Shown here: piece after piece, positions 15,782 to 38,132 of the stretch
Numbering within the stretch: the stretch's first letter is position 1
How the letters are laid out: every line of letters starts with the position of its first letter
Assembly (NCBI RefSeq): GCF_000214175.1
Contig: NC_015564.1
Location: forward strand, 124,001-188,000
DNA: 64,000 bases
From: Hoyosella subflava DQS3-9A1
Lineage (GTDB): Bacteria > Actinomycetota > Actinomycetes > Mycobacteriales > Mycobacteriaceae
Reading direction: 5' to 3'
Made by a program: the position numbers and the translations under genes
Notes under the pieces: generated by a model
What the model was told of the DNA's origin: nothing
Databases searched by the model: none
What the model saw: the letters and a program-made list of their open reading frames with translations, nothing else

Positions 15782-16813
<1,032 letters not shown>

Positions 16814-16890: not shown

Positions 16891-18165
16891 CTATGCGGAT
16901 GTCTCGTTTCTTGTGAAGCTCGGCGCCCGGGCGATGGACTGGAGGATTTCGCCGGCTCGCACTGCGACGTTGGACAGCAGGGACGAGCTGATGCCGTGGC
17001 TGTGTTCCACTCCGCCCTGCAAGTAGATTCCGGCGCGAATCCCTGGGCTGGTGCTGAGGCGATACTCGCGTGTGACAGCAGGCGGTTGCGCCACGAGTGT
17101 CCCGAACAGCGGTTGTAGGGGAGTTGGGGTGAAACCGGTCGCGAAAACTACGGCATCGCAGGTGAGCTCGTCATCGAGGCCGTCAAGATCGGAGCGGATG
17201 GTGACGTCAACACCGTCGGGTCGTTCCTGCACGCGAGTTAGCTGGGAGGCTCTGCGCATGAACAGTCGCCGCTGGCCGCTGACCCGTTCGCGGTACTCCG
17301 CCGCGTACAGTTTGGCAATGAGATCAGGGTCCACGACGGAGTAGTTCACCCCGCGGTGGAGGTCGAGCAGGCGCCGCCGGACTGCGGCGGGCGCGTGATG
17401 GAATTCGTCGACAACGGCGGGGTCGAAGATGCGGTTGGCGTACGGGCTGTCGTCGGCGGGGCTGTAGCCAAAACGCGAAAAGACGCTATGCACCTCGGCG
17501 CTCGGGTGGTGAGTGTGCAGGTAATCCACGATTTCGGCGGCGCTCTGGCCAGCGCCTACGACGATGAACCGCTGATGCGCAGGTGGGGGCATCTCTGCGA
17601 TCCGATGGAGGAACTGGTGGTTGTGGAAGCACCGCCGCGATGTCTGGATGCCTTCGGGCAGTCGCTCACGGAGGCCAACCGCGGCAACAACGTGGCGCGC
17701 AACCACAGATTTGCCCTCCGTGTCGACTCTGAGTGTGTCCGCCTGGCCGTTCGCGTCGTACATCGGTGTGACGCTGGTGACCGTGGTGCCGTAGCGGACG
17801 TCGGCACCAACCCGGTCAGCGGCCCACTCGAGGTAGGCGTGAAACTCCTTTCTGGAGGGGAAGAACGTCTGGTGGTTGACGAAGTCGACGAGCCGGTCCT
17901 GATCGTGCAGGTACGAGAAGAAGGTGTATCGGCTGCGGGGATTGCGGAACGTCGCGAGATCCTTGGGAAAAGCGACCTGCATGGACGTTCCGTCGAGCAG
18001 CATGCCCCGGTGCCAGCCGAAGCGTTCCTGCCGTTCAAAAAAAACGGCGCGCAGTGGTTGGCTCGCAGTCTCGTTGTACTCCTCGATCGCGATGGCCAGC
18101 GCCAGGTTGGAGGGGCCGAAACCGATTCCGGCGATGTCGATTTCAGTGGAATCCTGGTCGCTCAT
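16891..18165 (-). CDS. L-ornithine/L-lysine N-monooxygenase for siderophore synthesis
   Basis: FAD- and NADPH-dependent N-hydroxylase (SidA/PvdA/IucD family) that converts the side-chain amine of ornithine or lysine to a hydroxylamine, the precursor of a hydroxamate ligand. Motifs are the N-terminal GIGFGPSNLALA FAD loop, FPKDLATFRNPRS in the substrate region, VVGAGQSAAEI for NADPH, and the C-terminal ATGFTP and SLLSNVAVRAGEI. The ATG at 18165 is preceded by AGAGGAAC and gives 424 residues; the upstream extension is not conserved. Last gene of the minus-strand siderophore operon. Choice between Orn and Lys is not certain. Confidence 0.9.
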   Translation of the reverse strand: MSDQDSTEIDIAGIGFGPSNLALAIAIEEYNETASQPLRAVFFERQERFGWHRGMLLDGTSMQVAFPKDLATFRNPRSRYTFFSYLHDQDRLVDFVNHQTFFPSRKEFHAYLEWAADRVGADVRYGTTVTSVTPMYDANGQADTLRVDTEGKSVVARHVVAAVGLRERLPEGIQTSRRCFHNHQFLHRIAEMPPPAHQRFIVVGAGQSAAEIVDYLHTHHPSAEVHSVFSRFGYSPADDSPYANRIFDPAVVDEFHHAPAAVRRRLLDLHRGVNYSVVDPDLIAKLYAAEYRERVSGQRRLFMRRASQLTRVQERPDGVDVTIRSDLDGLDDELTCDAVVFATGFTPTPLQPLFGTLVAQPPAVTREYRLSTSPGIRAGIYLQGGVEHSHGISSSLLSNVAVRAGEILQSIARAPSFTRNETSA

Positions 18166-18205
18166 GAAGTTCCTCTCGCTGGAGCGGGGCGGGTGGGCAG
18201 GTGGC

Positions 18206-18856
18206 CTAAACGCGCGCCGCACCTAATGCTGCGTCCACGCCGGAGGTGGGCAGGACGACGGCGCATCGGGCGGCGGCGTAGGCAAGAGCTTCGTTGTGTT
18301 CGCGTGCGGAGAAGTCCGCGACCGCATCGGACACGAGAAAGATCTCCACGTCCTGCATGAAGCCGTCGAGGGCGGTTGTGAGGCATCCGATGTGGGCGTA
18401 GACGCCCGTAATCACCAACTGGTCGCGGCCCCACTCCCGCATCAGGTCACGGAGGTTCGTCCGAATGAAGGCGCTGTAGCGCCATTTGGTCAGCAGCGTG
18501 TCATCAGGATCGGGAGCGAGATCGTGGATGATGGATGTTTCACGTGGATCATCGCTGAGCCCAGGCCCCCAGAAGTCGGCAAGCAGCGCCCTATCCGCCG
18601 GGTGCTGGTCGCCGGGCTGCGCGGTATAGACGACGGGTACCCGCAGCTCTTTCGCCTGTTTTCTGATCCGCTGAATGTTCGGGACAACCGTTGCGAGGGG
18701 CTCCGCATTGCGCTCGAACGCGCGAATGAAGTACTCCTGCATGTCATGCAGCAAGAGCACCGTGCGCCGCGGATCGATGGTCCACGTCGCCACGTTCGAC
18801 GGCTGCTCATACGGCAGGGCATACGAGATCGACTTAGGCAAAGAGGTCTGGGGCAT
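18206..18856 (-). CDS. entB: Isochorismatase without aryl carrier domain
   Basis: Hydrolyses isochorismate to 2,3-dihydro-2,3-dihydroxybenzoate and pyruvate. The cysteine-hydrolase fold has LLLHDMQEYF (catalytic Asp), the TKWRYSAF Lys segment and GVYAHIGCLTTA with the usual cysteine. EntB and DhbB have about 290-310 residues because an aryl carrier domain is fused at the C-terminus; this protein stops at 216, exactly where that domain would begin. The free carrier protein at 35792-36016 probably replaces it. Start and entE stop overlap (TGATG). Confidence 0.92.
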   Translation of the reverse strand: MPQTSLPKSISYALPYEQPSNVATWTIDPRRTVLLLHDMQEYFIRAFERNAEPLATVVPNIQRIRKQAKELRVPVVYTAQPGDQHPADRALLADFWGPGLSDDPRETSIIHDLAPDPDDTLLTKWRYSAFIRTNLRDLMREWGRDQLVITGVYAHIGCLTTALDGFMQDVEIFLVSDAVADFSAREHNEALAYAAARCAVVLPTSGVDAALGAARV

Positions 18857-20493
18857 CAGGATTTCACTTTCTCCCAGCTGCGAGTCAGGGCGCGGCGAAG
18901 GTCGGCGCGGCTGATCTTCCCGACACCGGTGACCGGGAATTCCGGCACGACCTGTACGAGGTCAGGCACCTTGTAGCCGGCAAGTCCACGGCCGCGCAGG
19001 AATGATTTGAGTGCGATCGGGTTCGGTGGTTCGCCGTCTGCGACGACGAACGCGCAGGTGCGTTCTCCGAGGTAGGCGTCAGGAATGGCGACGATCGCGG
19101 CGTCGAGCACGTTGGGATGCGCGACGAGGTGGTTCTCAACCTCTTCGGCGGCGATCTTCTCGCCACCCCGGTTGATCTGGTCTTTGCTTCGTCCCTCGAC
19201 AACGAGGTAGCCAGATTCGGTGAGGCGCACAATGTCACCGGTGCGGTAGAAGCCGTCCTCGGTGAATGCCGTCTTATTGTGCTCGGCGGCGTTGTAGTAG
19301 CCGCGGATCGTATAGGGACCGCGGGTCAGGAGATGGCCCACCTCACCGGCGCGGACGTCGCAACCGGCGTCGTCGACAACGCGAACCTCGTCATCCGGGC
19401 TGATCGGGCGGCCCTGTGTTGTGACTATCACGTCTTCGGGGTCGTCAAGCCGCGTGTAGTTCACGAGGCCTTCCGCCATCCCGAATACCTGCTGCAGCGT
19501 ACAGCCCAATTCTGGTGTGACCCGGCGCGCTGCTTCTTCGGTGAACTTCGCGCCACCCACCTGCAATACCCCGAGCGACGACAGATCGGCGCTGCTGTTC
19601 TTGCGCGCTGCGAGCCATGTGAGTGCGAGCGGTGGCACGAGCGAGGTCATTGTGATGCGGTGGCGCTCGATCATCGAGAAGGCGGTGGAAGGACTCGGAT
19701 CTGGTGCGAGCACCACAGTGCCGCCCGCATGCAGCACGCCGAGAAATCCGGGTGAACTCATCGGGAAGTTGTGTGCGGCGGGCAGGACCACAAGCATCCG
19801 TGTCGCGCTGCTCACGCCACAGATCGCGGCCGATTCCCGCACTGAGTACAGATAGTCGGCGTGTGTTCGCGGTATCAGCTTGGGTGTGCCGGTAGTGCCG
19901 CCCGACAATTGCAGGAACGCGACCGTTTCCGCGTCGACATGTGTGACATCTGAGGGCCCAGTGGCCCGAACGCCGGAAAGCGCGAGGAAGTCGCCTGCGT
20001 CCCCAGCAACGATGACGTGCGGCGTGGACGGCAGGGTCCGGGCAATCCCGCGATAGTCGAACCCGCCATGCTGATCAGCGATCACATATGCCTTCGCCGC
20101 CGCGAATTCACAAAAGAAGCCGATCTCCGCGCTGCGGTGTGCGGGCAGCGCGAACACGGGCAGCGCACCGAGCCGGAACAGCGCGAACACGACCTCCATG
20201 AACTCCACGATGTTGGGGAGTTGAACGACCACACGGTCACCGGTACGGATACCTAGCCGACCGAATCCCCCGGCGATCCGCTCGGCCGACGTGGTGAGTT
20301 CCAGGTAGCTCAGGGCCCGGTTGGCGCCTGTGGCGTCCCGTCCGATGACCGCGATGTGATCTGCAAAGCGGTCCGCGCGGCGCGGCAGGAATTCCTGGAA
20401 TGTTTCGGTCGTCCAGTACCCGGCGGCGCGGTATCGCGCGGCGAATTCGGCTGGAAACGGAATGTGATCAGGCACGAAGGGTCGCACCCCCAT
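18856..20493 (-). CDS. entE: 2,3-dihydroxybenzoate-AMP ligase
   Basis: Activates 2,3-dihydroxybenzoate as the adenylate and loads it on the aryl carrier protein. The 545-residue ANL enzyme carries the P-loop [15 protein letters not shown], the aryl-pocket region [15 protein letters not shown] typical of DHB/salicylate ligases, YRTGDIVR and the catalytic Lys near GVGKISR. The start overlaps the end of entA by 26 bp. The neighbours entC, entA and entB supply the substrate. Confidence 0.94.
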
Positions 20494-21226
20494 CTACGTA
20501 AAGGGTCTGCATGGTGATGTGGCGTGCGCGTTCCGACAGCAGAAAGTCCACCGCATCAGCGATGTCATTGGGTTCCGCGATGCGGCCCAGCGGAATGCCC
20601 ACTTTGAACGAGTCAGGGTCGCCGCTGAGCACGGTGCGAAGGCCGGTTTCCTCATCGCGCCAGAGAGATCGCTGCATCGCCGTGTCTGTGGAGCCCGGTG
20701 CCACCACATTCGCGCGGATCCCGAAGGGTGCAAGTTCGAGACCGAGAACCCGGACAATCATGGAGACAGCAGCTTTGGAAGCGCCGTACGCGCCCATTCC
20801 TGTTCGCGGAACTCCCGCTGCGTTCGAGCCGACGACGACAATTGCACCGTGCTGCCGTTTACGCATGATTGCGCCAGCCGTGCGGAGCACGTTCACGGTG
20901 CCATGGACATTGACGTCGAAAACCTGCTGCCAGGCCGCCGCGCCGGTGTCGAGAATCGAGCCAGTGACAAGAACCCCGGCGACGTGCGCGAGGTGGGTGA
21001 TCGGCCCGTGGCCGACTTCGATAGTGCTGATCACGCGTTCAACTTCTGCGGTGTCCCGGACGTCGAGCACATACGCAGGCTGGTCGCCGATTAGCCGCGA
21101 CGTTTCGTGGAGTGCCGCTTCGTCGACGTCAGTGAGGACGACGGTGCGGCCGGCTTTCGCGAGCGTGAGGGCGGTGGCGCGTCCGATGCCGCTTCCGGCG
21201 CCGGTAACGAGGGTCAGCTCCGTCAC
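20468..21226 (-). CDS. entA: 2,3-dihydro-2,3-dihydroxybenzoate dehydrogenase
   Basis: NAD-dependent SDR that aromatises the isochorismatase product to 2,3-dihydroxybenzoate. It has the [10 protein letters not shown] cofactor loop, the [10 protein letters not shown] segment, VVGSNAAG with the active-site Ser and YGASK. The length is 252. Its start overlaps the stop of entC by 4 bp (ATGA). The assignment to entA rather than another SDR rests on its place between entC and entE. Confidence 0.9.
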
Positions 21227-22359
21227 TGTTCCACCCCGAATGCGTCGAAGATGGTGCGCAGCTTGCTGGTTGTTTCGTCGAGCTCTTCATGCGGTTCAGA
21301 CTCGGCGACAATGCCGCCTCCCGCATGGGCAGTGAGGGTGACACCGTCGCTCGCGAGGGTTACGCACCGGATGGTCACCATCCATTCGCCGTCTCCGGCA
21401 GCGTCGGTCCAGCCGAGCGCGCCTGCGTAGAATCCGCGGTCCCCCTCGGTTTCGCGAATGAATGCCTGCGCAGCCGGCGTTGGTGTGCCGCAGACGGCTG
21501 GGGTTGGGTGCAGCGCGAGAGCCAGGTCAAGTGCGGTCGTTGAGGCGCTTCGGAGTTCGCCCCGAATCGGTGTGCCAAGGTGCCAGAGTTCCCGCGTGCT
21601 GGTGAGCGTGGGCTGACGCGGGGTGCGGAGTTCGCGGCACAACGGGGTCAGCGTCGCGCGGATCTGGTCTACGACGAATGCGTGTTCAGCGAGGTCTTTG
21701 CTGGAAGCCCGCAAATTGGCGGCGTGCGCTCGGTCGAGCTCTGCGTCACGGTCACGCGGCGCTGATCCGGCGAGCGGGTGGCAGGTGATCGTTGTGCCGC
21801 TGCGCGATATCAGCACTTCGGGGCTGGCGCCAATGAGATGGCAACCCTGCCACGGACCTCCAGCTGCGCTGAGGTTGATCGCGAATCCATTGCGATTCGG
21901 GTCGCTGTGGACCAGCCGGGCGAGAAGAGCGGAGGAATCGACGGGTGAGCTTGCACGAAGTTCCACTGCACGTGCAAGGACTACCTTCTGCAGTGTGGTG
22001 CTGCTCAGTGCCCTGACGGCAGCATGAACGCGATTGAGGTGGGTGTCGGGCGAGGGGGCGAAGCCGGTGACGGAGAGTCGCGGCAGCGCAACTTCTCTGG
22101 GGTCTAGCGGGGTGTTGTAGCGGAGCAGGTCGTGCGGGGCGGTGAGCGCGGCGGGGTGCTCGGGGTCGAAAGGCAGTGCTCCAGCTATGGCGGATATTTT
22201 TCCCGACCGCAGCGCGTGAGCTGCCGAATTGGCACAGTCGAACGTGGCGGCTGTGCCCATCGCGATCACGGTTCCATGCGGCCTGGACAGCACGAAGGAC
22301 GAGGGTTCGAGGCAGCCGTGGAAGTCGCGGGCTGGTTGTGAAATCACCTGTGCCTGCAT
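21223..22359 (-). CDS. entC: Isochorismate synthase
   Basis: Converts chorismate to isochorismate with Mg2+, the entry step to the catechol. The chorismate-binding fold shows KVVLARAVEL, FLIGASPEVLI-like GCHLIGASPEVLISR, HPLAGSAPRD, STRELWHLGTPI and the C-terminal CGTPTPAAQAFI and RGFYAGALGW. The ATG at 22359 has GGGAGGAAA upstream and gives 378 residues. The frame is open to 22428, but that would cross into the promoter. First gene of entC-entA-entE-entB-N-hydroxylase. Confidence 0.93.
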   Translation of the reverse strand: MQAQVISQPARDFHGCLEPSSFVLSRPHGTVIAMGTAATFDCANSAAHALRSGKISAIAGALPFDPEHPAALTAPHDLLRYNTPLDPREVALPRLSVTGFAPSPDTHLNRVHAAVRALSSTTLQKVVLARAVELRASSPVDSSALLARLVHSDPNRNGFAINLSAAGGPWQGCHLIGASPEVLISRSGTTITCHPLAGSAPRDRDAELDRAHAANLRASSKDLAEHAFVVDQIRATLTPLCRELRTPRQPTLTSTRELWHLGTPIRGELRSASTTALDLALALHPTPAVCGTPTPAAQAFIRETEGDRGFYAGALGWTDAAGDGEWMVTIRCVTLASDGVTLTAHAGGGIVAESEPHEELDETTSKLRTIFDAFGVEQ

Positions 22360-22429
22360 GCCGCAGTTTCCTCCCGATTGCCTGACGTGATGGTCGCCGC
22401 GGGCATCCCCCGCGCCAATCGAGAACATA

Positions 22430-22448
22430 TATGGTTAGCCTAACCTTT
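22430..22448. promoter_or_regulatory. IdeR/DtxR iron box in the divergent siderophore promoter
   Basis: TATGGTTAGCCTAACCTTT matches the IdeR consensus TWAGGTWAGSCTWACCTWA at 17 of 19 positions, with the central inverted repeat GGTTAGCCTAACC intact. It lies 71 bp from the entC start and 95 bp from the NRPS1 start, so iron-loaded IdeR could shut both operons. The 22360-22542 intergenic region holds no other feature I recognise beyond the NRPS1 ribosome site AGGAAGG. Confidence 0.85.
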
Positions 22449-22542
22449 TGGGGGATTCCCCCAGGTAGACGTCCGATTAGCCCGCTTTGGCCACCTCTCG
22501 GCCGGTAAATAGCCCCCGACATGCAGAAGATGAGGAAGGTAC

Positions 22543-25500
22543 ATGGCTGTCCCGTTCTTCCAGGACAATGCGTCGTTTCCACTTACCCGAGCTCAGCTCG
22601 GAGTGTGGTTCGCGCAGCAACTCGACCCCTCCAATGCGATCTTCAACACATCCGAGTGTGTCGAATTGTGCGGCGCGGTGGCACACGAAGCTCTCGCCGC
22701 AGCCGTGCAAGACTCAGTCAACGAAGCTGAAGTGCTTGTTGCGGAGTTCATCCCGGATCCTGGCGGGGGAGTCTCGCTTCGCCCTGGAAGGCGCAGCCTC
22801 CCGGCCGTGGAACGACTCGACATGCGTCACCACGCGGATCCGTGGGCAGCGGCCCAGAAGTGGATGGCGGCGGATCACCAGCAGGTCATCGATCCGGCGC
22901 GAGAGCTTTGTGTCCGCGGGGCCATCCTGCAGCTGGCTCCCGATCACGCCCTGCTCTATCTGTGCATCCACCATGTTGTGATCGATGCGTACGGCTTCGG
23001 GCTGCTCATCCGCCGGATAGCACAGCGGTACACGGCACTGGTGAACGGCGGTGAACTCCCCACTGGCCCTTCCCCATTCGCTCCGGTTGTCGAGGAGGAA
23101 TCGGCGTATCGCGCCTCCAGCGACTGGGAGCAGGATAGGCAATTCTGGCTCAACTACCTCGACGGCGCTGAAGAGGCGGTCAGCCTTTCCAGCACCGCAA
23201 CCGGTATCGCGCGCACCGTCCGCAGCGCCCGCCTCATTCTGACCGCGGAAGACAAGCGCGGCCTGGCCAGCGCCGCTGCGGCAACGGGAGTACCAGGCGC
23301 GAGCTGGGGTGACGCGCTCACCGCGGCGATCACGACGTATCTGCGTGGCGTGACGGGACGCGGGGACATCATTGTGGGGTTCCCGGTCATGAACCGGCTG
23401 GGCAGCGCTTCCATGGCTGTACCGATGTCAGCTGTCAACGTGGTTCCGTTGCGACTCGATGTGCGGCCCGAGTTCACCGTCGTTGACATCATCGGCCAAG
23501 TGAGCGGGGCCATCAAGCAGTGCCGCACGCACTTCCGCTACCGCGGCGAAGACATCGTCAACGACCTCCGCCTCCCGGCTGGCTCACGCGGCGTGATGGG
23601 TGCCTCCATCAACGTCAAACCGTTCGCGGACCGTTTCAGCTTCGGGGACATTCGCGCCTCGGTTCATTCGATCGCCCGCGGTCCGCTCCAGGACCTCATG
23701 GTGACGGCACGCCCCATCGACAACACGGGCGAACTCGAGGTGTGGCTCGACCTTGACGCCGCGGCGTACACAGAAAACGATCTGGCCGTGCATGCAGCAA
23801 GGCTGACGAAGGTGTTCCGCGACGTCGCCGCGCTGGGTGGCAGCGACACGCCGGTCGCTCGATTGCAGATGCTCACTGACCCCGAAATGCGAACCATCCT
23901 GCACGGGTGGAACAGCCACCACGCCAGCGTTCCAGCGGGTCAGACACTCGTCGACCTCTTCCGCGACTGCTGTGACCGCAACGGCGACCGCGTCGCGATC
24001 TATGACGGTGCTACGTCGATGACCTACCGGCAACTGGCGTCCCGCGCTCGCCGCCTCGCCCGCCATGTGCTCGCAGTGGATGGGCTGGGAACAACGGGTC
24101 GCGCCGCGGTTGCTCTGCCGCGCGGTGCTGACGCTCTGGTTGCGCTGTTCGCGGTCCTGGAAGCAGGCGGAACCTGCGTACCGCTCGATCCCGACCAGCC
24201 GGCAGAGCGGCTCGCGCACATTCTGGAGGGCACGGCTCCAGGCAGCGTCATCACCACAGCCGACTGCGCTTCCCGCGTTGCCGGGACATTCGAAATCTGG
24301 CTCGACGAGGCTGACGTGAGCAGCTACCCCGATGGTCCCCTTACGAACAAGGAACGGCGCAGGCCGCATCCACTCGACATCGCCTACGTCATCTACACAT
24401 CCGGGTCGACCGGCCGCCCCAAAGGCGTTGAGGTACCGCATGCCGGTGCGGTGAACCTGTTCCATAGCCACCGCGCGCGTGTGTTCAGCCGCACCAAAGA
24501 GGTCGCGCACAAAGAACACCTAATCGTCGGCCACGTGTGGTCGCTCGCGTTCGACGCATCGTGGGGCCCGCACCTGTGGATGCTGGATGGGCACACGCTG
24601 CACCTCGTCGATGAGACAACGCAACGCGACCCGGAGTTGCTCGCGACGTGGGCGAACCGGGAGAACTGGGACTTCGTCGAGCTACCGCCGGCGCAGCTGG
24701 AGTACATCATCGACCATGGCCTGCTGACTGAGGGGAGCGTGCCGGTGCTTGGTTTCGGTGGCGACGCGGTCACGGCCTCGCTCTGGAAGCAGCTCCGTGA
24801 ACGTCCGGGTGCCGCATTCAATTTCTACGGACCGACGGAAGGCACCGTTGATGTGCTGATCGCCGAAGTGCGCGACCATCCAGAACCTGTCGTCGGTCGG
24901 CCGGTTTCGAATCTGCAGGTGTACGTGCTGGATGCAGGGCTGCAGCCCGTGCCGCCGGGGTGCGACGGTGAGCTTTACGTCGCGGGCCCAGGTGTGGTGC
25001 AGGGTTACCTCGCTGCCGCCGCGCTGACCGCCGCTCGGTTTGTGGCCAATCCGTTTGGGGACGGGCGTATGTACCGCACCGGCGACGTTGTGCGGTGGAC
25101 TGATCACGGCACGATCGTCTATCGCGGCCGTGGCGATGATCAAGTGAAAATCCGGGGTTTCCGGGTCGAAGTTGCTGAGGTCGAAACCGCGCTCCGCCGA
25201 CTGCCGGGAGTCACTGCTGCCCTGGCGGTCGCTCGTCCCGACGAGACCGGAGCGAATCAGCTTGTTGGATACATTGTCGGCGTCGGCGATGAGGTCGGTG
25301 ACGCCACCTCGGTTCGGCAGCAGCTAGCACAGTGGCTCCCCAGCTACATGGTGCCTGCCGTAGTGATGCCGCTCGATGCGGTGCCACTTACGACCAATGG
25401 GAAGGTCGACCGGAAACGTCTTCCCGACCCGGACTTTCAGACGATGGTTTCGGCGCGAAAGCCCAGTACCCACGTGGAGCGTGTGGTCGCCGACATTGTT

Positions 25501-28500: not shown

Positions 28501-30168
28501 TTCACTGCCGAACCGGTGCGTGACGCTGCGAACGAGCGGGAGCGACTCATGTGCGACATCGTGGCGGACGCGCTCCGGCTGCCATTGGTGGATCCGGATG
28601 CCGACTTCTTCACGCTCGGTGGCGATTCGATCGTCGCGATCCAGCTCGTGTCGCGCGCGCGGAATGCCGGGCTCCGAGTAACAGCACGCGAGGTGTTCGA
28701 GCATCGCACCGCTGCGGGACTGGCTCGAGTGGCAGTCCCAGATGATCCTGCACGGTGGACCTGGGATGAGCAGTCAGCGACGGGAACGGTGCCGGTGCTG
28801 CCGATCACCCACGACATGATCGGTCGCGGTGGCGAGTATCGCCGGTTCGCGCAATCGCGGCTGCTGCATGCCCCCGCAGATCTGACACGTGAGGCGCTGG
28901 TCGCGGGCATGCAGCAGGTTCTCGACATCCACGATGTCCTGCGGGCGAGTTTCACAGCGCAGATGCGAACGCTGGAGATTCCCCCGGCGGGCGCCGTGCG
29001 CGCGGAAGATGTCGTCGCCGAGGTGGCGCTGCCGGCAGGGTATGCGGAGGAGGTCATCGCGGAGGTGACGGCGCAGGCGTACCGCGAACTCGATCCGGCG
29101 GCAGGCAGAATGACGAGGGTTGTTCTGTTTACCGGCGAGACGCCGCGCGTGCTCATCGTTGTGCACCATCTCGCGATCGACGGTGTGTCATGGCGGATCG
29201 TCGTTCCGGACCTTGCTGCGGCGTGTGAAGGGCGGCTACTGGCGCGGTCGGGGATGCCGATGCGCGCCTGGGCGCAGGCATTGACGCAGCGTGCCAGCGA
29301 GCGGCGGGCCGAACTGCCGCTGTGGAGGCAAATCCTCGCTGCTCGGGGGCGAGTCCGGGTCGGGTCGCGCGAGCTTGGTCCCAGCGACGTGATGTCACAG
29401 ACCGGGACAGTGGAAGTCGACGTCCCTGTGCACGTAGCGAAAAGGGTACTTACTGTGCTGCCCGAGAGTTTCCGGGCCCGCGTCGACGATGTCTTGCTCA
29501 GTGCGCTCGCCCGGGCGGTGGTCGCGGAGCACGGGCCCGGCGGTGTGCTTGTTGATCTTGAGGGGCACGGTCGTGAGGAGTCCGTGGTGCCGGGGGCTGA
29601 CCTTGCACGTACCGCGGGATGGTTCACGACGCTGTACCCCACTCGGCTCGACCCTGGTGAGGGTGATGCGGCGAGCGCGCTGAAGCGCGTGAAGGAGCAA
29701 CTCCGCGCCATTCCCGATAACGGGATCGGTTACGGGATGCTGCGGCACCTTGACGTTGGGGGGCGCGCGGAACTCAGTTCGCTTCCCGCTCCGGAGATTG
29801 GGTTCAACTATCTGGGCCGCTTCACGCTCGGTGAGGAGGCGGGAGAGCCGTGGTCTGCTGCCGCTGACGCGCTCGGTGGATCGACTGATGCGGAGATGCC
29901 AGTGAGCCATGCGATTGAAGTGGGGGTGGTGGCGCTGGAAACCGATGCAGGAACAGTGTTGCGCGCGCGCTTCGGCTTCAGCACTGGCGTCGTCACCAAG
30001 CACGTGGTGCAGCAGATGGCCGAGCGATGGGCAAGGGAATTGAGCGGGCTTGCCGAGGATGCGTCGGTAGGCGGGTTTACCGCCTCTGACCTCACATTAA
30101 GCGGTTTGAATCAGGACGAGATCGAAGAGTTCGAGGCGGAGTTCACAGAGTTCTCGGACATCAACTGA
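22543..30168 (+). CDS. Siderophore non-ribosomal peptide synthetase 1 (C-A-T-C-A-T-E)
   Basis: A 2541-residue two-module synthetase. Module 1: C domain with HHVVIDAYG at 143-151, placed to accept dihydroxybenzoate from a separate carrier protein; A domain with [11 protein letters not shown] from 618 and FYGPTEGT from 761; T domain with GGHSL, Ser1008. Module 2: C domain with HHIASDELS at 1188-1196, A domain with YTSGSTG from 1645, T domain Ser2029 in GGDSI, then an epimerase with [10 protein letters not shown] at 2208 and EGHGRE. The acidic tail ([13 protein letters not shown]) looks like a docking segment for NRPS2. Specificity positions, aligned by eye to GrsA, read DAGELFFVDK and DSDDVVVVDK; acidic residues at 278 and 331 suggest basic amino acids such as Orn or Arg. 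There is no thioesterase. Confidence 0.93.
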
Positions 30169-30186
30169 ACACTTGATCATGATAAG

Positions 30187-30205
30187 TTCGGTAAGGCTAA
30201 CCAAA
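30187..30205. promoter_or_regulatory. Second IdeR/DtxR iron box
   Basis: TTCGGTAAGGCTAACCAAA matches the IdeR consensus at 17 of 19 positions. It lies just after the NRPS1 stop and 46 bp before the binding-protein ATG at 30251. It gives the downstream set (binding protein, NRPS2, carrier protein, exporter, reductase) its own iron-controlled promoter. Confidence 0.82.
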
Positions 30206-30250
30206 TATGTCGGGCAATTCCGGCATTCTCATTCCGGGGAGATCAAGCAC

Positions 30251-31294
30251 ATGCGAGGAACAAAACTGAGTGGCGCACGCCGTGCGGGGGCACTCGCTGC
30301 GGCGTCGCTGCTGGCGCTGGGGCTGGCGGCATGCGGAAATGACGGAGATGGCACGAGTGCCACTGCCGACTCGGACTCGGCGGACGTGGCAGCCACATCA
30401 GACTCGACTCGCACATTCGAGGCGCAGAACGGCTCCATCGAGATTCCCGCAGAGCCGCAGAGCATCGTGGCGTGCGGTTACGCTGTCCTGCCGCTGATCC
30501 AGGCCCAGGCAAACCTCTCAGCAGTGTGCGAGTGGACCCGCGAGATCGACAGCATGGACGAGGAAACTCGCGCTGCCTACGATGCACTGCCGAAAATCGC
30601 ACCTGATGGGGCGGCGCAGTCGATCAACTATGAGGCAGTCGCCGCGGCCGAGCCAGACCTGATCATCATGGGAGTCCCGATTCGCGCGAAGGAAAGCCTC
30701 AACATGGAGGCGCTGGAAGCACTGGCTCCGGTGGTCTTCCTCGGTCCCACGACCGCGTCAGACTGGCGGGAACTGGGTGAACAGCAGACCGACGCTGCCG
30801 GAGTCGCCCAGAACTATGGTCCCTACAAAGAGACATACGACGCGCGTGCCGCCGAAATCGCGGAGAAGTATCAGGCCAGTCTTGGCAGCCTGAAATTCGC
30901 TGGCGTGTGCGATATCTGTGGTGCCAACGCAGGGGAGTTCGTCCGCGAGTATGCGGATTCCTACACCACGAACTTGTTCGCTGACCTCGGCGCCGACTTC
31001 CCCGGTCAACCCGACGACGATGCTATCGAGCATGCAGAGTACGCGTCGTACGAGCGCATTCCCGAGCTTCTCGGCGACGCCGATGTCATCGTCTACGCGG
31101 TTCAGGAAGACGGCACCGTTACCGAGGAACTCGAGGAACTTATGAATTCTGATCTGTGGCAGTCGCTTCCAGCGGTTCAGGCCGGGAACTTGATCCCTGT
31201 CCGCCACGGCCACGCCGCGACCTACCAGACGGCAGTACTCGCGCTCGATTCCATCGAGGAAACACTTGAAACGCTGCCCGCAGCCAACAACTAA
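30251..31294 (+). CDS. Ferric siderophore-binding lipoprotein
   Basis: The signal peptide ends in lipobox LAAC followed by GNDGDG, so the protein is membrane-anchored outside the cell. The body is a FepB/FhuD-like type III binding fold (PQSIVACGYAVLPLIQAQ, EPDLIIMGVPIRAK, VIVYAV). It is the likely receptor for the ferric form of the product. The ATG at 30251 follows GGGGAGA and is preferred to the frame opening at 30173, which would overlap the iron box. No permease or ATPase accompanies it; those must lie elsewhere or be shared with the FecBCD-type importer. Confidence 0.9.
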   Translation: MRGTKLSGARRAGALAAASLLALGLAACGNDGDGTSATADSDSADVAATSDSTRTFEAQNGSIEIPAEPQSIVACGYAVLPLIQAQANLSAVCEWTREIDSMDEETRAAYDALPKIAPDGAAQSINYEAVAAAEPDLIIMGVPIRAKESLNMEALEALAPVVFLGPTTASDWRELGEQQTDAAGVAQNYGPYKETYDARAAEIAEKYQASLGSLKFAGVCDICGANAGEFVREYADSYTTNLFADLGADFPGQPDDDAIEHAEYASYERIPELLGDADVIVYAVQEDGTVTEELEELMNSDLWQSLPAVQAGNLIPVRHGHAATYQTAVLALDSIEETLETLPAANN

Positions 31295-31315
31295 CGGCTA
31301 AGGACGAGATCTCTG

Positions 31316-34300
31316 ATGTCCCGCACCACTGCGCTCGAAGACGTTGTCCCTCTGTCACCATTGCAGCACGGTCTGCTCTACCTTCATACCGTCACCAAGC
31401 CGGACGATGATGCGGATACTCGGCCTGACGTGTACACGGTGCAGTCAGTATTGAGGCTGACAGGTGACCTCGATGAGCAGCGGCTGCGGGACTCGGCACA
31501 CGCCCTCCTTGAACGGCACGCGGCTCTGCGCACCTGCTTCCGGCAGCGTAAAGATGGGCGCACCGCTGGTCTGGTTGTCCGTGGTGTGACCGCACCCTGG
31601 ACAACGAGCGACCTGACCCACCTGCACAACGGTGCCCAGCTCACCGAACTCGAGAAGATTTGCTCCGCCGATCGTGGGCAATGGTTCGACCTCACACAGC
31701 CGCCCCTTATCCGCTGGCATCTCGTACGCACGGGTGCCCGCGAATGCCATCTCATCATGACGGCGCATCACATCGTCGTCGACGGCTGGTCCACACCGAT
31801 CCTCGTTCGTGAACTGCTCGAACTGTATGCCGGCACCGGGGAGCTGGCGCCGGTTCGTCCCTACCGCGACTATCTCGCCTGGCTGGACAAGCAGGATCTT
31901 GCCGCCGCCCGGGCTATCTGGCAGGAGACGCTCGCGGGGCTCACTGAGCCGACACTGGTTGCGGCGCCCGGATCTACCCGCGAAGCACGCCAGATCGATA
32001 CTCACGACCCCGGGACCCCTACCGAACTCACTGCTGCGGTTCTTGCGTGTGCGCAGCGGCGCGGGGTAACGGTCAATACAGTTCTGCAGGCAACGTGGGC
32101 GTTGCTGCTCAGCGGCCTTACTGGCCGTCGGGATGTGGTCTTCGGAGCGACAGTATCGGGACGCCCTCCAGAACTGCCTGGAGTGGAATCCATGGTCGGG
32201 CTCTTCATCAACACCGTTCCCGTTCGCGTACAGATAGAGCCAGGCGACACAGCCGGCGACCTTTTAGAGCGAGTCCAGCGGTCCCACGCCCGAACCATCG
32301 ATCACCAGTACGCCGCCCTCGCTGATATCCAGCGTGACCAGGGGCTCGGTGAACTCTTCGACACCCTGACCATCTTCGAAAGCTACCCAATCGACAAGGA
32401 TGCGCTCGAACGAGCACAGGATTCAGGCGGTATCCGCGTGGATGCCGTGCACGGAGCGGATGCGACGAACTTCCCGCTCGTCCTGGTCGCAGGCCTGCAT
32501 GACCAGTTGATTGTCCGGCTCGAATACCAGCCAGCATTGTTCTCACCCGACGCCGTCACCGCTATTGGCCGCCGCTTCGTCTCGCTGCTCACACAAGTCA
32601 CCGGTCAGCCAGAGCGTCCAGTCCCGCAGATGTCCTTTCTGCTCGACGAAGAGCGTAAGGAACTCGCGTCCTGGCTTCCCGCCCGCGCTGGCGCGACGAC
32701 GATGGCGGACCACCTCACCGCGCAGTCCGAAGCAACACCAGACCGCCTCGCGGTCGTCTGTGGCGGTGACATTCTCACTTTCGCCGACTTCAGTCGTGCG
32801 GCGAATCAACTGGGCCGGGCGCTGATATCTCACGGCGTCGGGCCCGAAGCTGTAGTGGCGATCGCCTTGCCCCGCTCCGCAGCCGTGATGTCCGCGATTT
32901 TCGGTGTTTTCGCCGCGGGCGGCTGTTATGTCCCACTCGATCCGTCGTATCCACCGGAGCGTCTCGCGCACATGCTTGACGACGCGCGGCCCGTCATGGT
33001 CATTACTGACGCTGCGACATCCGAGGCGCTGGGCAGCGTGCTGAGTGGCTGCAATGTGCTCCACCTCGACGCGGCTCGCGAGCTGATCTCACGACAGCCG
33101 GCACGCCCTATTACCGACGACGATCGGTGCGGCCCGCTGCGGCCCAGCAACACCGCATACGTCATCTACACCTCAGGTTCTACCGGCCGCCCAAAAGGTG
33201 TGGCGATCACCCACTCGAACCTCGTGAACCTGTTCGCCAGCCATCGCGCTGATCTGCACCAGCCTGCAGTGCAGGCGGCGGCTCGCGAGAACCTGGGTGT
33301 CGGACACGCGTGGTCATTCAGCTTCGACGCTTCCTGGCAGCCCATGCTGTGGCTGCTCGACGGCCACACAGTCCATATCTTTGACGACACCACCATGCGT
33401 GACCCGGCAGAGATGACGCGCTACACCCTCGAGCACGAACTCGACTTCCTCGAGGTCACCCCCACTTTCCTGGACCACATGACAGGTGAAGGCCTGTTCA
33501 GCGGAGCGCACCGTCCGGCCGCTGTCGGTTTCGGTGGTGAAGCGGTGAACCCCGATCTGTGGCGGCGTCTGCGGGCGGCACCAGTGTTGGCAGCGAACCT
33601 GTACGGGCCCACCGAATGCACCGTCGATTCACTGATCGGTTTCGCCGCGGACGCGGAGTCACCGACGCTCGGACGTGCTGTGCACGGAGGCCGCGCGTAC
33701 GTGCTCGACGACCTGCTGCGCCCCGTCCCACCCGGCGGGACCGGTGACCTCTACCTTGGTGGGGCCGGGGTGGGCCGAGGCTATCTGAACCGCCCGGAGC
33801 TCACCGCGGAGCGGTTTGTGGCCGACCCGCACGGAATCGCGGGGCAGCGCATGTACCGCACCGGCGACGTAGTGCGACTCTCTGCCGGATCGCCATACCG
33901 TCTTGAATACCTCGGACGCGGTGACGACCAGGTCAAAATACGTGGCTTCCGAGTCGAACTCGGCGAAGTGGAAGCGGCGCTGGCCGCAGCGTCCGGAGTG
34001 CGCAGTGCGATCGCAGTAGCCCACACCGACGAGTCCGGTGTTCGTCGCATCGTCGGGTACATAACCTGTGACGACCCTGCTGAGGCCAATGTCGACCCGC
34101 TCGATGTGCGCAGCGATCTCCACACGCGTCTGCCGGACTACATGGTGCCCGCGGCCGTGATCTTGATCGACTCGATCCCAACGATGCCCAACGGAAAGAT
34201 CAACCGGAAAGCGCTGCCAAACCCTGACTTCGCCGCATTGACCAGCAGTCGAGCGCCCCGGACCGCCACTGAAGCGACGCTGGCCGGTGTTGTCGCAGAG

Positions 34301-35782
34301 ATTCTTGGCCTGGAGAACATCGGAATCGACGATGATTTCTTCTCGCTCGGCGGGGATTCCATCGTCTCCATCCAGCTGGTGTCGAAAGCCCGCGCGGCAG
34401 GCATAGCCTTGAGTGCACGAGACGTATTCGAACTGCGCACCATCGCCGCGATGGCGGCAGCGTGCGATAAGTCGGACGCCATCGTCGCCGACGCTGAAGC
34501 CGCGGTACGACTCGACGCAATTCCCGCGACCGGCGAAGTCCCGTTCACGCCTATCATGCGCGACGCCCTTGAATGGGGCGGTCACCTGAGCCGGTTCACC
34601 CAATCCCGGCTTCTCACCGCGCCCGCTGGACTGACGGTCGCAGCGCTCAGCAGCGCGATTGGGGTGCTTATTTCAGCGCACCCGGCACTCCGATCCAGGC
34701 TTGCATGCGATACCTGGGTTCTCAATGAGACCGGCCCCGCGCCAGAGGTTCTCGTACGCCGGGTCGACGCGGCACAGGGCCCCTGGGAGGAGCTTTTCCG
34801 CGCGGAACGGCACCGTGTGCTCGATGCTCTCGATCCATATCGCGGCATCATGTTGCAAGCCGTGCTGTTCGACATGGGGCCTAATGTCCCCGGTCGTGTT
34901 TTCCTTGCGATCCATCATTTTGCCGTCGATGGGGTCTCGTGGCGGACGCTAGTTCCTGAGCTGGCTGCCGCCGTGCGCGGCGACGGGATCGAGCCGGAGG
35001 GCACTTCCTTCCGGGCCTGGGCAACGACCCTTGCTACCAGCCACCGGGTGCCCAGTACACGGGACGTGTGGCTGCCCGCTCTCAGCGCGGAGGAACCGGT
35101 GCTGGGAACGCGTGCGCTGACCGAAACGGACACTGTCGCGACGATGCGATCCGCCCACGTCCGCCTGCCCACTCGAACCACCGAGAAGGTCCTCGCCAGC
35201 GGGACCGTCAACGACATCCTCCTCGCCGCACTGGCATTCGCGGTGCGAGAAGTGCGCGGGGGGTGCGCCGTGAAAATCGAGCTCGAGGGACATGGCCGCG
35301 AAGAACACCTCGTCCCCGGCGCAGATCTTTCCCGAACTGTCGGCTGGTTCACCACGACGTTCCCCGTGCTGATCGACGTCGATGACGACCTGACAGCGAC
35401 ACTGCACAACACAGCTTCGTCGCTGCGGGCCATCCCTGATGGTGGCATCGGCTTCGGGTTGTTGCGTGAATACGACAACGAGTTCAGGGCGAGGCCCTAC
35501 CAGCGGCCGTCCGTGGTGTTCAACTATCTGGGCCGCATGACGCTCGGGGAAGAAACCGGTGCGGCCTGGACCACAGCGCATGAAGGGGAGGCGCTCGGTG
35601 GTTCCGTTGACCCCGCCACCAGGCTCAACCACCCGCTCCACGTGGACGCGGTGACCGTCGACAGTGCCGACGGGCCCGAAATCGAATGCGAATTCTCCGC
35701 TGCCAGTGGCGTTCTCGGGCCCGAGTCCACCCAGCGAATTGCGGCGATCTGGCGGCAGGCCGTCATTCACATCACAGAATAA
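31316..35782 (+). CDS. Siderophore non-ribosomal peptide synthetase 2 (C-A-T-E)
   Basis: A 1488-residue single module: C domain with a canonical HHIVVDGWS at 151-159, expected to take the D-configured chain from the NRPS1 epimerase; A domain with [11 protein letters not shown] from 618 and LYGPTECT; T domain with GGDSI, Ser1015; epimerase with [10 protein letters not shown] at 1200 and ELEGHGRE. Specificity positions by eye read DAQEVFLVDK, again acidic at 278 and 331. The protein ends with the epimerase, with no thioesterase, reductase or terminal condensation domain. Release must be by another enzyme or by self-cyclisation, for instance of a hydroxyornithine; this is inference. Confidence 0.92.
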
Positions 35783-35791
35783 GGAAGAGCC

Positions 35792-36016
35792 ATGGGACTG
35801 CAACGCTCCACCATTCTTGCCGATACCGCGCGCATCCTCGAGGTTCCCGCGGACCAGCTTGACCCATCCGTCAGCCTCGTGGATCAGGGACTCGACTCGG
35901 TGCGGCTGATCGCGCTCGTCGAGCAGTGGCGTGAGACTGGCGTGGACGTTGACTTCGTGGCGCTGTCAACACAGCCAGAACTCGACCACTGGTTCGCCGT
36001 CCTCGGGGCGAACTGA
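35792..36016 (+). CDS. Free-standing carrier protein, probable aryl carrier protein
   Basis: A 74-residue acyl/peptidyl carrier domain with the phosphopantetheine site GLDSVRL (Ser33 by count). It begins 9 bp after NRPS2. The nearby isochorismatase lacks the carrier domain normally fused to it, and the first C domain of NRPS1 has no upstream loading module in the same protein. This protein is therefore the likely acceptor of dihydroxybenzoate from EntE. Confidence 0.85.
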   Translation: MGLQRSTILADTARILEVPADQLDPSVSLVDQGLDSVRLIALVEQWRETGVDVDFVALSTQPELDHWFAVLGAN

Positions 36017-36021
36017 TCCGC

Positions 36022-37299
36022 GTGGCACTGCGCGACAGACTCCTCATCGACATCAGCCCGCTGCGTACCAGCCGCGAGTTCCGGTACCTGTTCACCGCGC
36101 GGGCCGTGTCGATCCTCGGCATCGGCTTCTTGATGGTCGCACTGCCCGTACAAATGTATGACCTGACCGGCTCCACCACGCAGGTCGCCGCGGTCGCTGC
36201 TGTCTTCGGAGCTGCCACCTTTGTGGCGACCTTCCTCGGTGGCGTCCTCGCGGACCGCTGTGACCGCCGTCGCCTCATCATGCTCGCGCGCGGGACCGCT
36301 GGTGTGTTCTTCGCGGTACTCGCAATCAACGCCGTTCTTCCCGAGCCACAGACTTGGGTGCTGTACCTCTGTGCTGTCGTCGACGGAGTGTGTGGCGGCA
36401 TCTCGGTCACTGCGCTGATGGCTGTCACACCCAGCCTGATACCCCGCGACAAGCTCGCTGCCGCAGGTGCGCTCGTCGCATTGACGGGGAACATCGGCGC
36501 CCTCGCGGGCCCCGCACTTGGTGGCGTCGTCATCGCTGTGGGGGGAGTGGGTGTCAATTACACCGTTGCGGCTGTGGCGACTGCGGTGACCACGTTCTGC
36601 ATTTCGCGACTACCATCGCTGCCGCCTCCAGGTCGCGCTCGCGAATCACCCGTCGCGTCGGTCATTAGCGGCTACAAGTACGCATTAGGTGACCGTGTTG
36701 TCGGCGGAGTTCTCATCGCTGGATTCGTGTCCATGCTCTTGGCCGGGTGGACTGTTTTCATACCCGAATACGCCACCGAGGTCCTCGGTGTGGGTCCGTC
36801 AGTCATCGGCCTGCTTTACGCGGCCCCCGCGGTGGGAGCGCTCCTTGGGTCGCTGACCAGCGGATGGACGTCGACGGTGCAATGGAGCGGACGGGTGATC
36901 TTCGGTGGCATGCTGATCTCCGCCACCGGACTGGCGGGCGCAGGTGCAACCGCTGCCGTCGCGCTTGTGGTCGTGGGACTCGCCACGCACGGCTTCGGCG
37001 ACACGATCACCGACATCATGCGTTACGCCGTCATCCAGCGCGGCACCCCCGACAAGTACCGCGGTCGCATCGCTGGTGTCTGGTCCGCTCAAATGACGGC
37101 AGGGGCGTCCATCGGGGCTATCGCCGCAGGTGCAGTGTCTTTTCTTGTGCCGATTTCCGCAGCCCTGGTGGTGTACGGACTGATCGGGTGTGTGCTGACA
37201 CTCGTGCTGTGTGCATGGCTCAGAACGCTGCGGGGTGTGAATGAGCGAACGCATGTCAACGAAGAAGTAACTGCCGCTAGCGGAAGGAGCGCGAAATGA
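36022..37299 (+). CDS. MFS exporter, EntS-like
   Basis: A 425-residue major facilitator protein with about twelve transmembrane helices, the LADRCDRRRLI loop between helices 2 and 3, and overall similarity to EntS/YbdA siderophore exporters. GTG start 5 bp after the carrier-protein stop; its end overlaps the reductase start (ATGA). Position within the siderophore operon supports export of the iron-free product. Confidence 0.88.
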   Translation: MALRDRLLIDISPLRTSREFRYLFTARAVSILGIGFLMVALPVQMYDLTGSTTQVAAVAAVFGAATFVATFLGGVLADRCDRRRLIMLARGTAGVFFAVLAINAVLPEPQTWVLYLCAVVDGVCGGISVTALMAVTPSLIPRDKLAAAGALVALTGNIGALAGPALGGVVIAVGGVGVNYTVAAVATAVTTFCISRLPSLPPPGRARESPVASVISGYKYALGDRVVGGVLIAGFVSMLLAGWTVFIPEYATEVLGVGPSVIGLLYAAPAVGALLGSLTSGWTSTVQWSGRVIFGGMLISATGLAGAGATAAVALVVVGLATHGFGDTITDIMRYAVIQRGTPDKYRGRIAGVWSAQMTAGASIGAIAAGAVSFLVPISAALVVYGLIGCVLTLVLCAWLRTLRGVNERTHVNEEVTAASGRSAK

Positions 37300-38132
37300 A
37301 CCGGACGGACTATCAGGACCGGCTCGCGGAGGTTCTAGCGGGTCACAACGCCGCTAAGGTCGGGTACCCGATTGGGCTCCGCGAACTGACAGTGCTGCGG
37401 CGCACAGCCGTCGGTTCTGGGATAGTGCGCGTCACGTTTGGTGGTCCAGAGCTCGCCGGATTCGTCTCGCACGTGCCCGACGAACATGTACGGCTGATCT
37501 TTCCGGATTCGGATGGCGTTCTCCGGTTGCCCGAACGCGACGGTCTGTCGTTGCGATGGTCAGCGCCTCGGCCGGTTTCGCGCGAGTATTCGGTTCGCCG
37601 TTTCGATGCGGAGGGTGGCGAGCTGGACATCGAGTTCGTGATCCATCCGGGAGGGCTCGCCTCTGAGTGGGCTGCGAGTGCCGAACCCGGCACCCGGATA
37701 CACATCGCGGGACCGCCCGGTGGCGTCGTGGTACCGAACAGTTACGACCGGTACCTGCTGGCGGGGGACATTACTGCGCTACCCGCCATCGCTCGCTGGC
37801 TCGAGACGTTGCCGCGCGATGCGCGCGGCTGGGCAATCGTGGAAGTTGCGGACGAATCCGAGGAGGTCGCTCTTGACGCCCCCGCCGGACTGGACGTGCA
37901 ATGGCTGCACCGCGGCGACGCGGCGCCCGGTTCAACGGATCTTCTGGAAAAGGCGATCCGGACGCTCGCGCTGCCTTCCGGTGAGCGCGTTTACATCTGG
38001 ATCTCCGGGGAAGCGGGGTCGATTCGTCCGCTGCGCAGGTGGGTTCGCACGGAAGTCACGTCCGAGCGGTGTGACCACTTGATCACGGGGTATTGGAAGC
38101 GCGGCACGGCGGATTACGGTGATGCGGAGTAA
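37296..38132 (+). CDS. Siderophore-interacting protein (FAD ferric reductase)
   Basis: A 278-residue member of the ViuB/YqjH family. The FAD-binding half contains the RPVSREYSVRRFD motif and FVIHPGGLASEW; the C-terminal half is the SIP domain (YLLAGDITALPAI, WISGEAGSIRPLRRW). These enzymes reduce Fe(III) in imported siderophore to release iron. Last gene of the plus-strand siderophore operon and convergent with gltS. Confidence 0.92.
   Translation: MNRTDYQDRLAEVLAGHNAAKVGYPIGLRELTVLRRTAVGSGIVRVTFGGPELAGFVSHVPDEHVRLIFPDSDGVLRLPERDGLSLRWSAPRPVSREYSVRRFDAEGGELDIEFVIHPGGLASEWAASAEPGTRIHIAGPPGGVVVPNSYDRYLLAGDITALPAIARWLETLPRDARGWAIVEVADESEEVALDAPAGLDVQWLHRGDAAPGSTDLLEKAIRTLALPSGERVYIWISGEAGSIRPLRRWVRTEVTSERCDHLITGYWKRGTADYGDAE

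Follow-up and report, generated by a model that had tools for sequence, protein, structure and literature searches.

How does a siderophore assembly line that ends in an epimerase, and carries no thioesterase (TE), let go of its product, and what might that product be? The question is raised by a locus of the soil actinobacterium Hoyosella subflava DQS3-9A1, where genes for 2,3-dihydroxybenzoate (DHB) synthesis, an N-hydroxylase, two non-ribosomal peptide synthetases (NRPSs) and a detached aryl carrier protein (ArCP) lie within a stretch of 64,000 nucleotides, the window (C3:124001-188000 of the 4.86-Mb, three-contig genome; positions given without a prefix are those of the window). We think it likely that this is an iron-regulated siderophore cluster with a layout like that of the rhequibactin locus, whose product ends in a cyclic N-hydroxyornithine and leaves the synthetase by lactam formation, a hydrolase probably assisting. 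This would link a widespread DHB NRPS family, found in Rhodococcus, other Mycobacteriaceae and Hoyosella, to a product class and a release mechanism.

The assembly line and its terminus

Genes and domains were identified by Pfam and NCBIfam profile searches of the window proteins; whole-genome family searches were run at E <= 0.001 and read for matches inside the window. On the minus strand, with overlapping gene ends throughout, lie entC for isochorismate synthase (21223-22428; TIGR00543 above cut-off), entA for 2,3-dihydro-DHB dehydrogenase (20468-21226; TIGR04316 at 296 bits, just below the cut-off of 300), entE for the 2,3-DHB-AMP ligase (18856-20493; TIGR02275 at 738 bits, above cut-off), entB for an isochorismatase of 216 amino acids (aa) without a carrier domain (18206-18856; PF00857 only) and NOH for a predicted L-ornithine N5-monooxygenase (16891-18222; PF13434, 336 bits). 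On the plus strand, NRPS1 (22543-30168; 2541 aa) has the order C-A-T-C-A-T-E, as shown by Pfam, motifs, codes and orthology to the relatives' modules 1 and 2. Its first condensation domain (22576-23898; PF00668), with counterparts in relatives that are 53-60% identical, is predicted to receive the DHB borne by the detached carrier, and its epimerase domain occupies 28846-30066 (PF00668 match, E motifs). NRPS2 (31316-35782, plus strand; 1488 aa) is the terminal C-A-T-E module by Pfam, code and orthology, and ends in an epimerase domain (34589-35779; PF00668-type match, E motifs) with no thioesterase after it. Pfam yields three C-type, two A and two T domains for NRPS1 and two C-type, one A and one T for NRPS2, the AMP-binding stretches that it marks in NRPS1 numbering three against two A domains by BLAST and code reading. 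Motifs identify the final C-type domain in either synthetase as an epimerase: HHxxxDGVSW, EGHGRE and FNYLG are all there.

An earlier model-made interpretation of the letters (here the sequence-only reading) had placed the DHB genes, the N-hydroxylase and the domains of both synthetases in this way, and the profile matches and motifs bear it out. It had also put the carrier in a gene apart from entB. The 74-aa protein encoded at 35792-36016 (plus strand; PF00550), whose gene begins 16.9 kb from entB, matches the C-terminal carrier of Escherichia coli EntB (PDB 2fq1, E 2.7e-9) and has the same GLDSVR motif; 'detached ArCP' is therefore the correct name. The same reading reported no stand-alone thioesterase, MbtH-like protein, formyl- or acetyltransferase in the window, and indeed PF00975 (thioesterase), PF03621 (MbtH), PF00551 (formyltransferase) and PF13523 (acyltransferase) gave no match there at the threshold above; all four families are present elsewhere in the genome. 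It named a thioesterase at the NRPS2 C-terminus as something that would overturn it: there is none, and the final condensation-family match reaches the last residue. That a thioesterase was overlooked or frameshifted away is ruled out, because the epimerase match spans to the NRPS2 end, the architecture is identical in the nearest named relative, Hoyosella altamirensis DSM 45258 (locus L010; 95% identity over NRPS2), and other relatives are TE-less too. The mixed catechol-hydroxamate tripeptide that it had predicted, with residues 2 and 3 epimerised, is likewise supported.

We also considered whether terminal epimerases might be inactive in relatives. Of the 61 E domains aligned for the cluster family, among them both of those in the window, 13 were picked out by a motif filter, but every one of the 61 retains the second His, the Asp and the Glu, and the idea was rejected.

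Substrates, relatives and module history

Ten-position A-domain codes were read against GrsA, whose own positions gave the expected DAWTIAAICK. The window codes are DAWEGGFVDK for module 1, DSLDMGVVDK for module 2 and DAWEGGLVDK for module 3, that of NRPS2. The last is printed as the code of the scabichelin hydroxyornithine module (PMC7692728) and is also found in the C-A-T-E module of Streptomyces, Amycolatopsis and Lentzea loci that appear to be amychelin- or kasichelin-like; by its code, module 3 would load hydroxyornithine. The module 1 code is one position away, and the same letters (DA-EGGFVDK, the W being displaced in the alignment) stand in the last module of an NRPS frame from two other actinobacteria (L022, L039), which makes ornithine or hydroxyornithine the likely substrate of module 1. 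The module 2 code agrees at seven of its ten positions with that of the first heterobactin-type NRPS module (DALDVGMVDK), which we take to be an arginine code. Since the A-domain tree does not group these two modules, a basic residue, perhaps arginine, is a guess for module 2.

With ArCP as query against 401 Mycobacteriaceae genomes, 22 genomes outside Hoyosella gave matches, at 61-70% identity; the neighbourhoods of all 22 were fetched and their domains called by BLAST against the window and own-genome domains. R. ruber, R. aetherivorans and other Mycobacteriaceae proved to have an NRPS pair orthologous to that of the window. NRPS2 was readable whole in 19 of the 22 outgroup loci, and in each of these it has a terminal E domain, no detectable TE and the carrier gene as its neighbour; as a control, the same detection found TEs in the heterobactin-like NRPSs of genomes G150, G209, G146 and G041. 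We conclude that the detached carrier, the terminal epimerase and the absent thioesterase are family-wide, with published precedents.

Outgroup NRPS1 is C-A-T-C-A-T-E where it is whole (15 loci) and is cut by the fetched stretch or the contig in four, while NRPS2 has the order C-A-T-E-C-A-T-E in 17 of 19 and three C-A-T-E modules in two, against one in the window. The divergent layout of entC/A/E, NRPS1, lipoprotein, NRPS2, ArCP and EntS-like major facilitator superfamily (MFS) gene recurs in H. altamirensis and in 15 of the 22 outgroup loci. In eight of these 15, as in the window, entB stands beside entE; the stretches fetched for the remaining seven gave no entB. The contig of G180 ends beside ArCP. 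Two genomes, G072 (L171-L172) and G032 (L177), keep entCAE and ArCP, and in G032 also entB and the lipoprotein, with NRPS genes absent from between them; they are possible non-producers that may still import the siderophore.

The Hoyosella line is shorter, and the sequences suggest how. In a maximum-likelihood A-domain tree with five relatives, the window A domains fall with the relatives' modules 1, 2 and 4, module 3 missing, and window A3 joins their module 4 at 100/99 support. Identity along NRPS2, compared for 12 of the 19 loci, changes partner: residues 1-75 (C domain) are 65-76% identical to the relatives' first NRPS2 module as against 40-53% to the last, and residues 601-750 (A core) are 67-75% identical to the last as against 33-51% to the first. 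This mosaic fits either Hoyosella having lost one A-T-E-C unit or the other genomes having gained it.

NOH is the sole match to its own protein in the genome at E <= 0.001 and follows entB in the entCAEB operon of all three Hoyosella genomes examined (the window's, H. altamirensis and G029). In the third of these, G029 (L184-L185), the same entCAEB-NOH operon stands beside a heterobactin-like NRPS of 4,716 aa, in which BLAST finds no TE and whose last code is DMWNMGLINK; we regard this as an NRPS swap at a conserved DHB operon. That NOH stays in the DHB operon whichever of the two NRPSs is present supports use of its product by the DHB siderophore.

Chain release

The predicted product is DHB–(Orn-type)–D-(basic, perhaps Arg)–D-cyclo-hydroxyornithine, of which we infer residues 1 and 2. 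EntC, EntB and EntA would make 2,3-DHB, and EntE would load it onto the detached ArCP. NRPS1 would add an ornithine-type residue and then a second, basic residue, epimerising the second, after which NRPS2 would add and epimerise N5-hydroxyornithine supplied by the neighbouring N-hydroxylase. The terminal hydroxylamine nitrogen would then attack its own thioester to form the cyclic N-hydroxyornithine lactam, which is the hydroxamate ligand; because this self-attack frees the chain, no thioesterase would be needed. A stand-alone alpha/beta hydrolase of AmcB/DafK type, for which C3:510664-511461 is the candidate, probably aids cyclisation. Export would be by the EntS-like MFS protein, re-uptake by an ABC system with lipoproteins, and iron removal by an FAD reductase.

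Published systems offer precedents. The kasichelin line, given in PMC12305651 as PCP-Cy-A-PCP-C-A-PCP-E-C-A-PCP-E with a single-domain peptidyl carrier protein (PCP) and no TE, makes a product that carries a 2R (D) N-hydroxyornithine lactam, and is the cleanest precedent for TE-less release from an E-terminated line. For amychelin, cyclisation of the last residue is ascribed to AmcB, a stand-alone hydrolase, as cited in PMC12305651; for dactyloferrin, which is DHB-primed, lacks a TE and ends in cyclo-hydroxyornithine, the AmcB homologue DafK is proposed for release (PMC10683483). By analogy, release in Hoyosella is largely explained by precedent. The sequence-only reading had offered a hydroxyornithine lactam as a guess and called release unexplained; the guess is strengthened by the scabichelin-type code of module 3, and the second part of that statement no longer holds in view of the precedents.

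As a stand-in for AmcB we used the alpha/beta hydrolase L020:1634-2437 of an amychelin-like locus. Homologues at 52-58% identity are present in 11 of 11 genomes tested, that of H. subflava being C3:510664-511461 (53%). A survey of 121 Mycobacteriaceae genomes at E <= 1e-50 found both hydrolase and NOH in 62, the hydrolase only in 31, NOH only in seven and neither in 21, a weak co-occurrence (odds ratio 6, p 1.5e-4, uncorrected for kinship). The two lie on one contig in 38 of the 62: less than 1 kb apart in nine (168-305 bp), 2.8 kb apart in one and 16-21 kb apart in 19. G139 (300 bp) and G276 (18.5 kb), from outside the 121-genome draw, show the same two patterns of spacing, and an NRPS occupies the 17-18-kb gap in both loci inspected (G276, G044). 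Adjacent NOH and hydrolase genes are seen in L189 and L190, and genes at opposite NRPS ends in L191-L192 and L194-L195. Such pairing hints that an N-hydroxylase and a release enzyme form a conserved couple in the making of hydroxamate siderophores. Seven of the ten tight pairs, G139 counted, belong to genus g27, which holds R. ruber, and all seven genomes have an ArCP orthologue, with the DHB genes in view for six (the contig of G102 ends inside NRPS1); the remaining three are in genera g22 and g24 and have no close ArCP orthologue. It is attractive, if conjectural, to suppose that the NRPS once partnered by an N-hydroxylase-cyclase pair was lost and that the pair has since worked for the DHB line.

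Several observations weigh against the part given here to the hydrolase and to hydroxyornithine. The query was a stand-in and not AmcB itself, and the kasichelin cluster is described as having no AmcB homologue (PMC12305651). No AmcB/DafK-type hydrolase gene lies in the window cluster, the only homologue being the unlinked one at C3:510664, and the Hoyosella candidates are 343-368 kb from NOH or on another contig. More widely, hydrolase and NOH are more than 100 kb apart in nine of the 38 genomes with both on one contig, two of the nine being Hoyosella, and on different contigs in 24 of the 62. The hydrolase is widespread: 93 of the 121 genomes have it, the 31 without NOH among them, and it is missing from seven that have NOH; its commonness also weighs against the idea of a pair that outlived its NRPS. 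No NOH turned up in the 22 outgroup stretches fetched. Its nearest solved structures are MbtG (L-Lys; 415 bits) and KtzI (344 bits), the latter presumably an ornithine enzyme, so that its sequence leaves lysine a possible substrate and the ornithine assignment therefore rests on the A-domain code.

In a rival reading, the same cyclic hydroxyornithine product forms with no dedicated hydrolase, spontaneously or through the terminal E-type domain. We hold this to be a possibility of some substance: the cluster in the window and that for kasichelin both lack an AmcB-type gene, a terminal C-A-T-E with no TE detected is found also in Mycobacterium and Nocardia genes that we name MbtF/NbtF-like from their features, and mycobactin ends in a hydroxylysine lactam. 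On the other side are the mediation of amychelin cyclisation ascribed to AmcB and the role proposed for DafK (PMC10683483), together with a hydrolase homologue that is kept in the genome and lies near NOH in many relatives. Hydrolysis to a linear D-hydroxyornithine acid seems improbable. The genome has one clear stand-alone type II thioesterase that could perform it (C3:4057919, 175 bits), but this lies far from the cluster with no NRPS gene adjoining within the 7 kb fetched, the free N-hydroxylamine of such an acid would be no hydroxamate ligand, and the close precedents are lactams.

It is also conceivable, if very improbable, that NRPS2 is not last: a further NRPS would receive the chain in trans, or a free-standing condensation enzyme would transfer it to an amine. 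E-terminated subunits usually feed a downstream C domain, and the genome holds three other large NRPS regions (C3:464-502k, 4142-4164k and 4553-4576k, with frames of 5,630-7,491 aa) and two free-standing C-domain genes. Against this, TE matches are present in large frames of each of the three regions, both free-standing genes lie outside the window among non-siderophore neighbours, and the terminal code of NRPS2 is that of the scabichelin hydroxyornithine module. A heterobactin-type product, for which one might cite the shared DHB and NOH parts and the heterobactin-like NRPS beside the same operon in G029, is to our minds the least probable of all, as the glycine-type code and last code DMWNMGLINK that accompany a TE in heterobactin-type lines have no counterpart in the window.

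The MbtF/NbtF-like genes (L041-L088) have the code DAWDAGCVEK in the shared terminal C-A-T-E; many of their E domains read DVVSW and some ESHGR, and these domains may be non-epimerising. One of the free-standing C-domain genes, L197:6089-7459 (C3:3048-3049 kb), is of EntF/MxcG type, its best NCBIfam matches being to the first domains of MxcG and EntF (229 and 183 bits). It has PDB matches to CDA synthetase I, EntF and the stand-alone amide synthase 1l5a, which we take to be VibH. Its HHxxxD motif is intact, its closest window domain is the first C domain of NRPS1 (29%), and one of its neighbours is EspG-like. The other, at C3:3825 kb (L196:7127-8917), is LCL-like and adjoins an alpha/beta hydrolase gene. 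The detached carrier could feed the C3:3048 kb enzyme, which would attach a second DHB; since the gene is unlinked and CDA-type starter domains acylate with fatty acids, we treat this as a lead only.

Returning to lactam release with a hydrolase, a fuller history can be sketched, which we regard as speculative and rather doubtful. A minimal scaffold, DHB–L-(hydroxy)ornithine–D-basic–D-cyclo-hydroxyornithine, would have arisen by A-T-E-C loss and capture of the N-hydroxylase into the DHB operon, and a chromosomal cyclase of AmcB type, formerly linked to a different, hydroxamate NRPS locus, would off-load the chain in trans. Genus g27, with its NOH–hydrolase pair lacking an NRPS of its own, would be the intermediate, and the detached carrier may serve the C3:3048 kb enzyme in adding a second DHB to give a hexadentate product.

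Iron boxes, transport and known systems

Both iron boxes were judged against the IdeR/DtxR consensus. The first, with core GGTTAGCCTAACC, lies in the divergent promoter at 22430-22448 (15-mer match 22432-22446); on its own, the short 15-mer pattern behind this match does not exceed chance (2 found, 1.29 expected). The second (30187-30205, plus strand), upstream of the lipoprotein gene's probable start, has three mismatches to the consensus, and none was found in 100 shuffles. Together the boxes suggest iron control. The siderophore-binding lipoprotein gene itself (30173-31294, plus strand, probable start ATG 30251; PF01497) is kept between both NRPS genes in relatives. After ArCP, also on the plus strand, come genes for the EntS-like MFS siderophore exporter (36022-37299; NF007792 at 501 bits, above cut-off) and a siderophore-interacting FAD reductase (37296-38132; PF04954 and PF08021). 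A FecCD/FepD-like permease (12892-13977) and an ABC ATPase (13977-14777), both judged from translation, and a substrate-binding protein (14774-15769; PF01497), all encoded on the plus strand and 97-99% conserved in H. altamirensis, form a probable ferri-siderophore importer. These iron-uptake genes are surrounded by dTDP-rhamnose-type genes at 7136-8594 and 15815-16813 (RmlC-like, nucleotidyl-transferase and sugar-dehydratase-like), and 8656-10080 encodes a PF10081/PF15420 protein, which might be thought of as another conceivable releasing hydrolase.

The closest counterparts are the loci of R. ruber NBRC 15591 and R. aetherivorans DSM 44752, which have the window's gene order where in view and share the detached ArCP, the terminal E domain and the lack of a TE. 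R. ruber NRPS1 is 58% identical over its length, and the codes at modules 1, 2 and last are the same or nearly so. Unlike the window's single module, NRPS2 in both is C-A-T-E-C-A-T-E, and the distance between NOH and entB is about 29 kb in R. ruber; in R. aetherivorans the two genes are on different contigs.

Heterobactin, of the R. erythropolis type, is DHB-D-Arg-Gly-cyclic hOrn plus a second DHB, and the predicted product shares its DHB and cyclic hydroxyornithine. The loci of G150, G209 and G146, which we presume to be of heterobactin type from their features, have one NRPS of about 4,500 aa with a TE end, last code DMWNMGLINK and a glycine-type code, DIVQLGVVWK; domain identity to the window's is about 30-51%. 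The window has no single large NRPS, glycine-type module or terminal TE of this kind. The TE, the codes and the low identity rule out heterobactin as the nearest synthetase, and the heterobactin-type synthetases are a separate family; the sequence-only reading's choice of heterobactin-like compounds as nearest class thus gives way to the orthologous Rhodococcus pair.

Scabichelin belongs with the TE-less cyclic N-hydroxyornithine lines, as do amychelin, kasichelin and dactyloferrin, whose terminal hydroxyornithine code and lack of a TE recur in the window. As described in PMC12305651, kasichelin is alike in its TE-less line ending C-A-PCP-E, its single-domain PCP and its D N-OH-Orn lactam, and differs in its phenolate/catecholate oxazoline start and beta-amino-acid linker; orthology of a DHB operon is not established there. 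Dactyloferrin, in the description of PMC10683483, resembles the predicted product in DHB priming, ornithine and arginine content, cyclo-N-hydroxyornithine end and absence of a TE, whereas dactyloferrin/chlorodactyloferrin has eight monomers, acetyl-hydroxyornithine and, in the main product, chlorinated DHB. Lines of fuscachelin/cellulochelin type were rejected as a match because the second cellulochelin NRPS is reported to end in a TE (PMC13251462).

In R. equi, the rbt1/iupS locus (REQ08100-08200) has NRPS genes REQ08140-60 beside EntCAEB homologues REQ08130-100, and is described as making a DHB-derived catecholate by a synthase called dimodular, with a binding protein and MFS transporters downstream (PMC2947987). 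By that description, and not by gene alignment, the window resembles this rhequibactin locus in having EntCAEB by the NRPS genes, a binding protein and an MFS gene; the binding protein, downstream in R. equi, lies between the NRPS genes in the window. We found no account of the Hoyosella cluster in the literature searched, where PMC5550956, its supplement aside, includes the A. subflavus genome, and the accessible text of PMC5550956 and PMC7502451 gives no structure for the Rhodococcus-type DHB NRPS family.

New here are the three-module Hoyosella version, the family-wide picture and the candidate off-loading hydrolase. As the smallest version of the family available for study, the Hoyosella cluster opens two questions to test: which agent frees the product of a siderophore synthetase that ends in an E domain, and by what route such lines acquire or shed modules in nature. 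Rhodobactin combines two catecholates with one hydroxamate. Its genes are given as unidentified (PMC7502451); rhodobactin of R. rhodochrous OFS may be a product of the larger clusters in the ArCP-orthologue family, and the Rhodococcus-type DHB NRPS family may include the missing rhodobactin genes.

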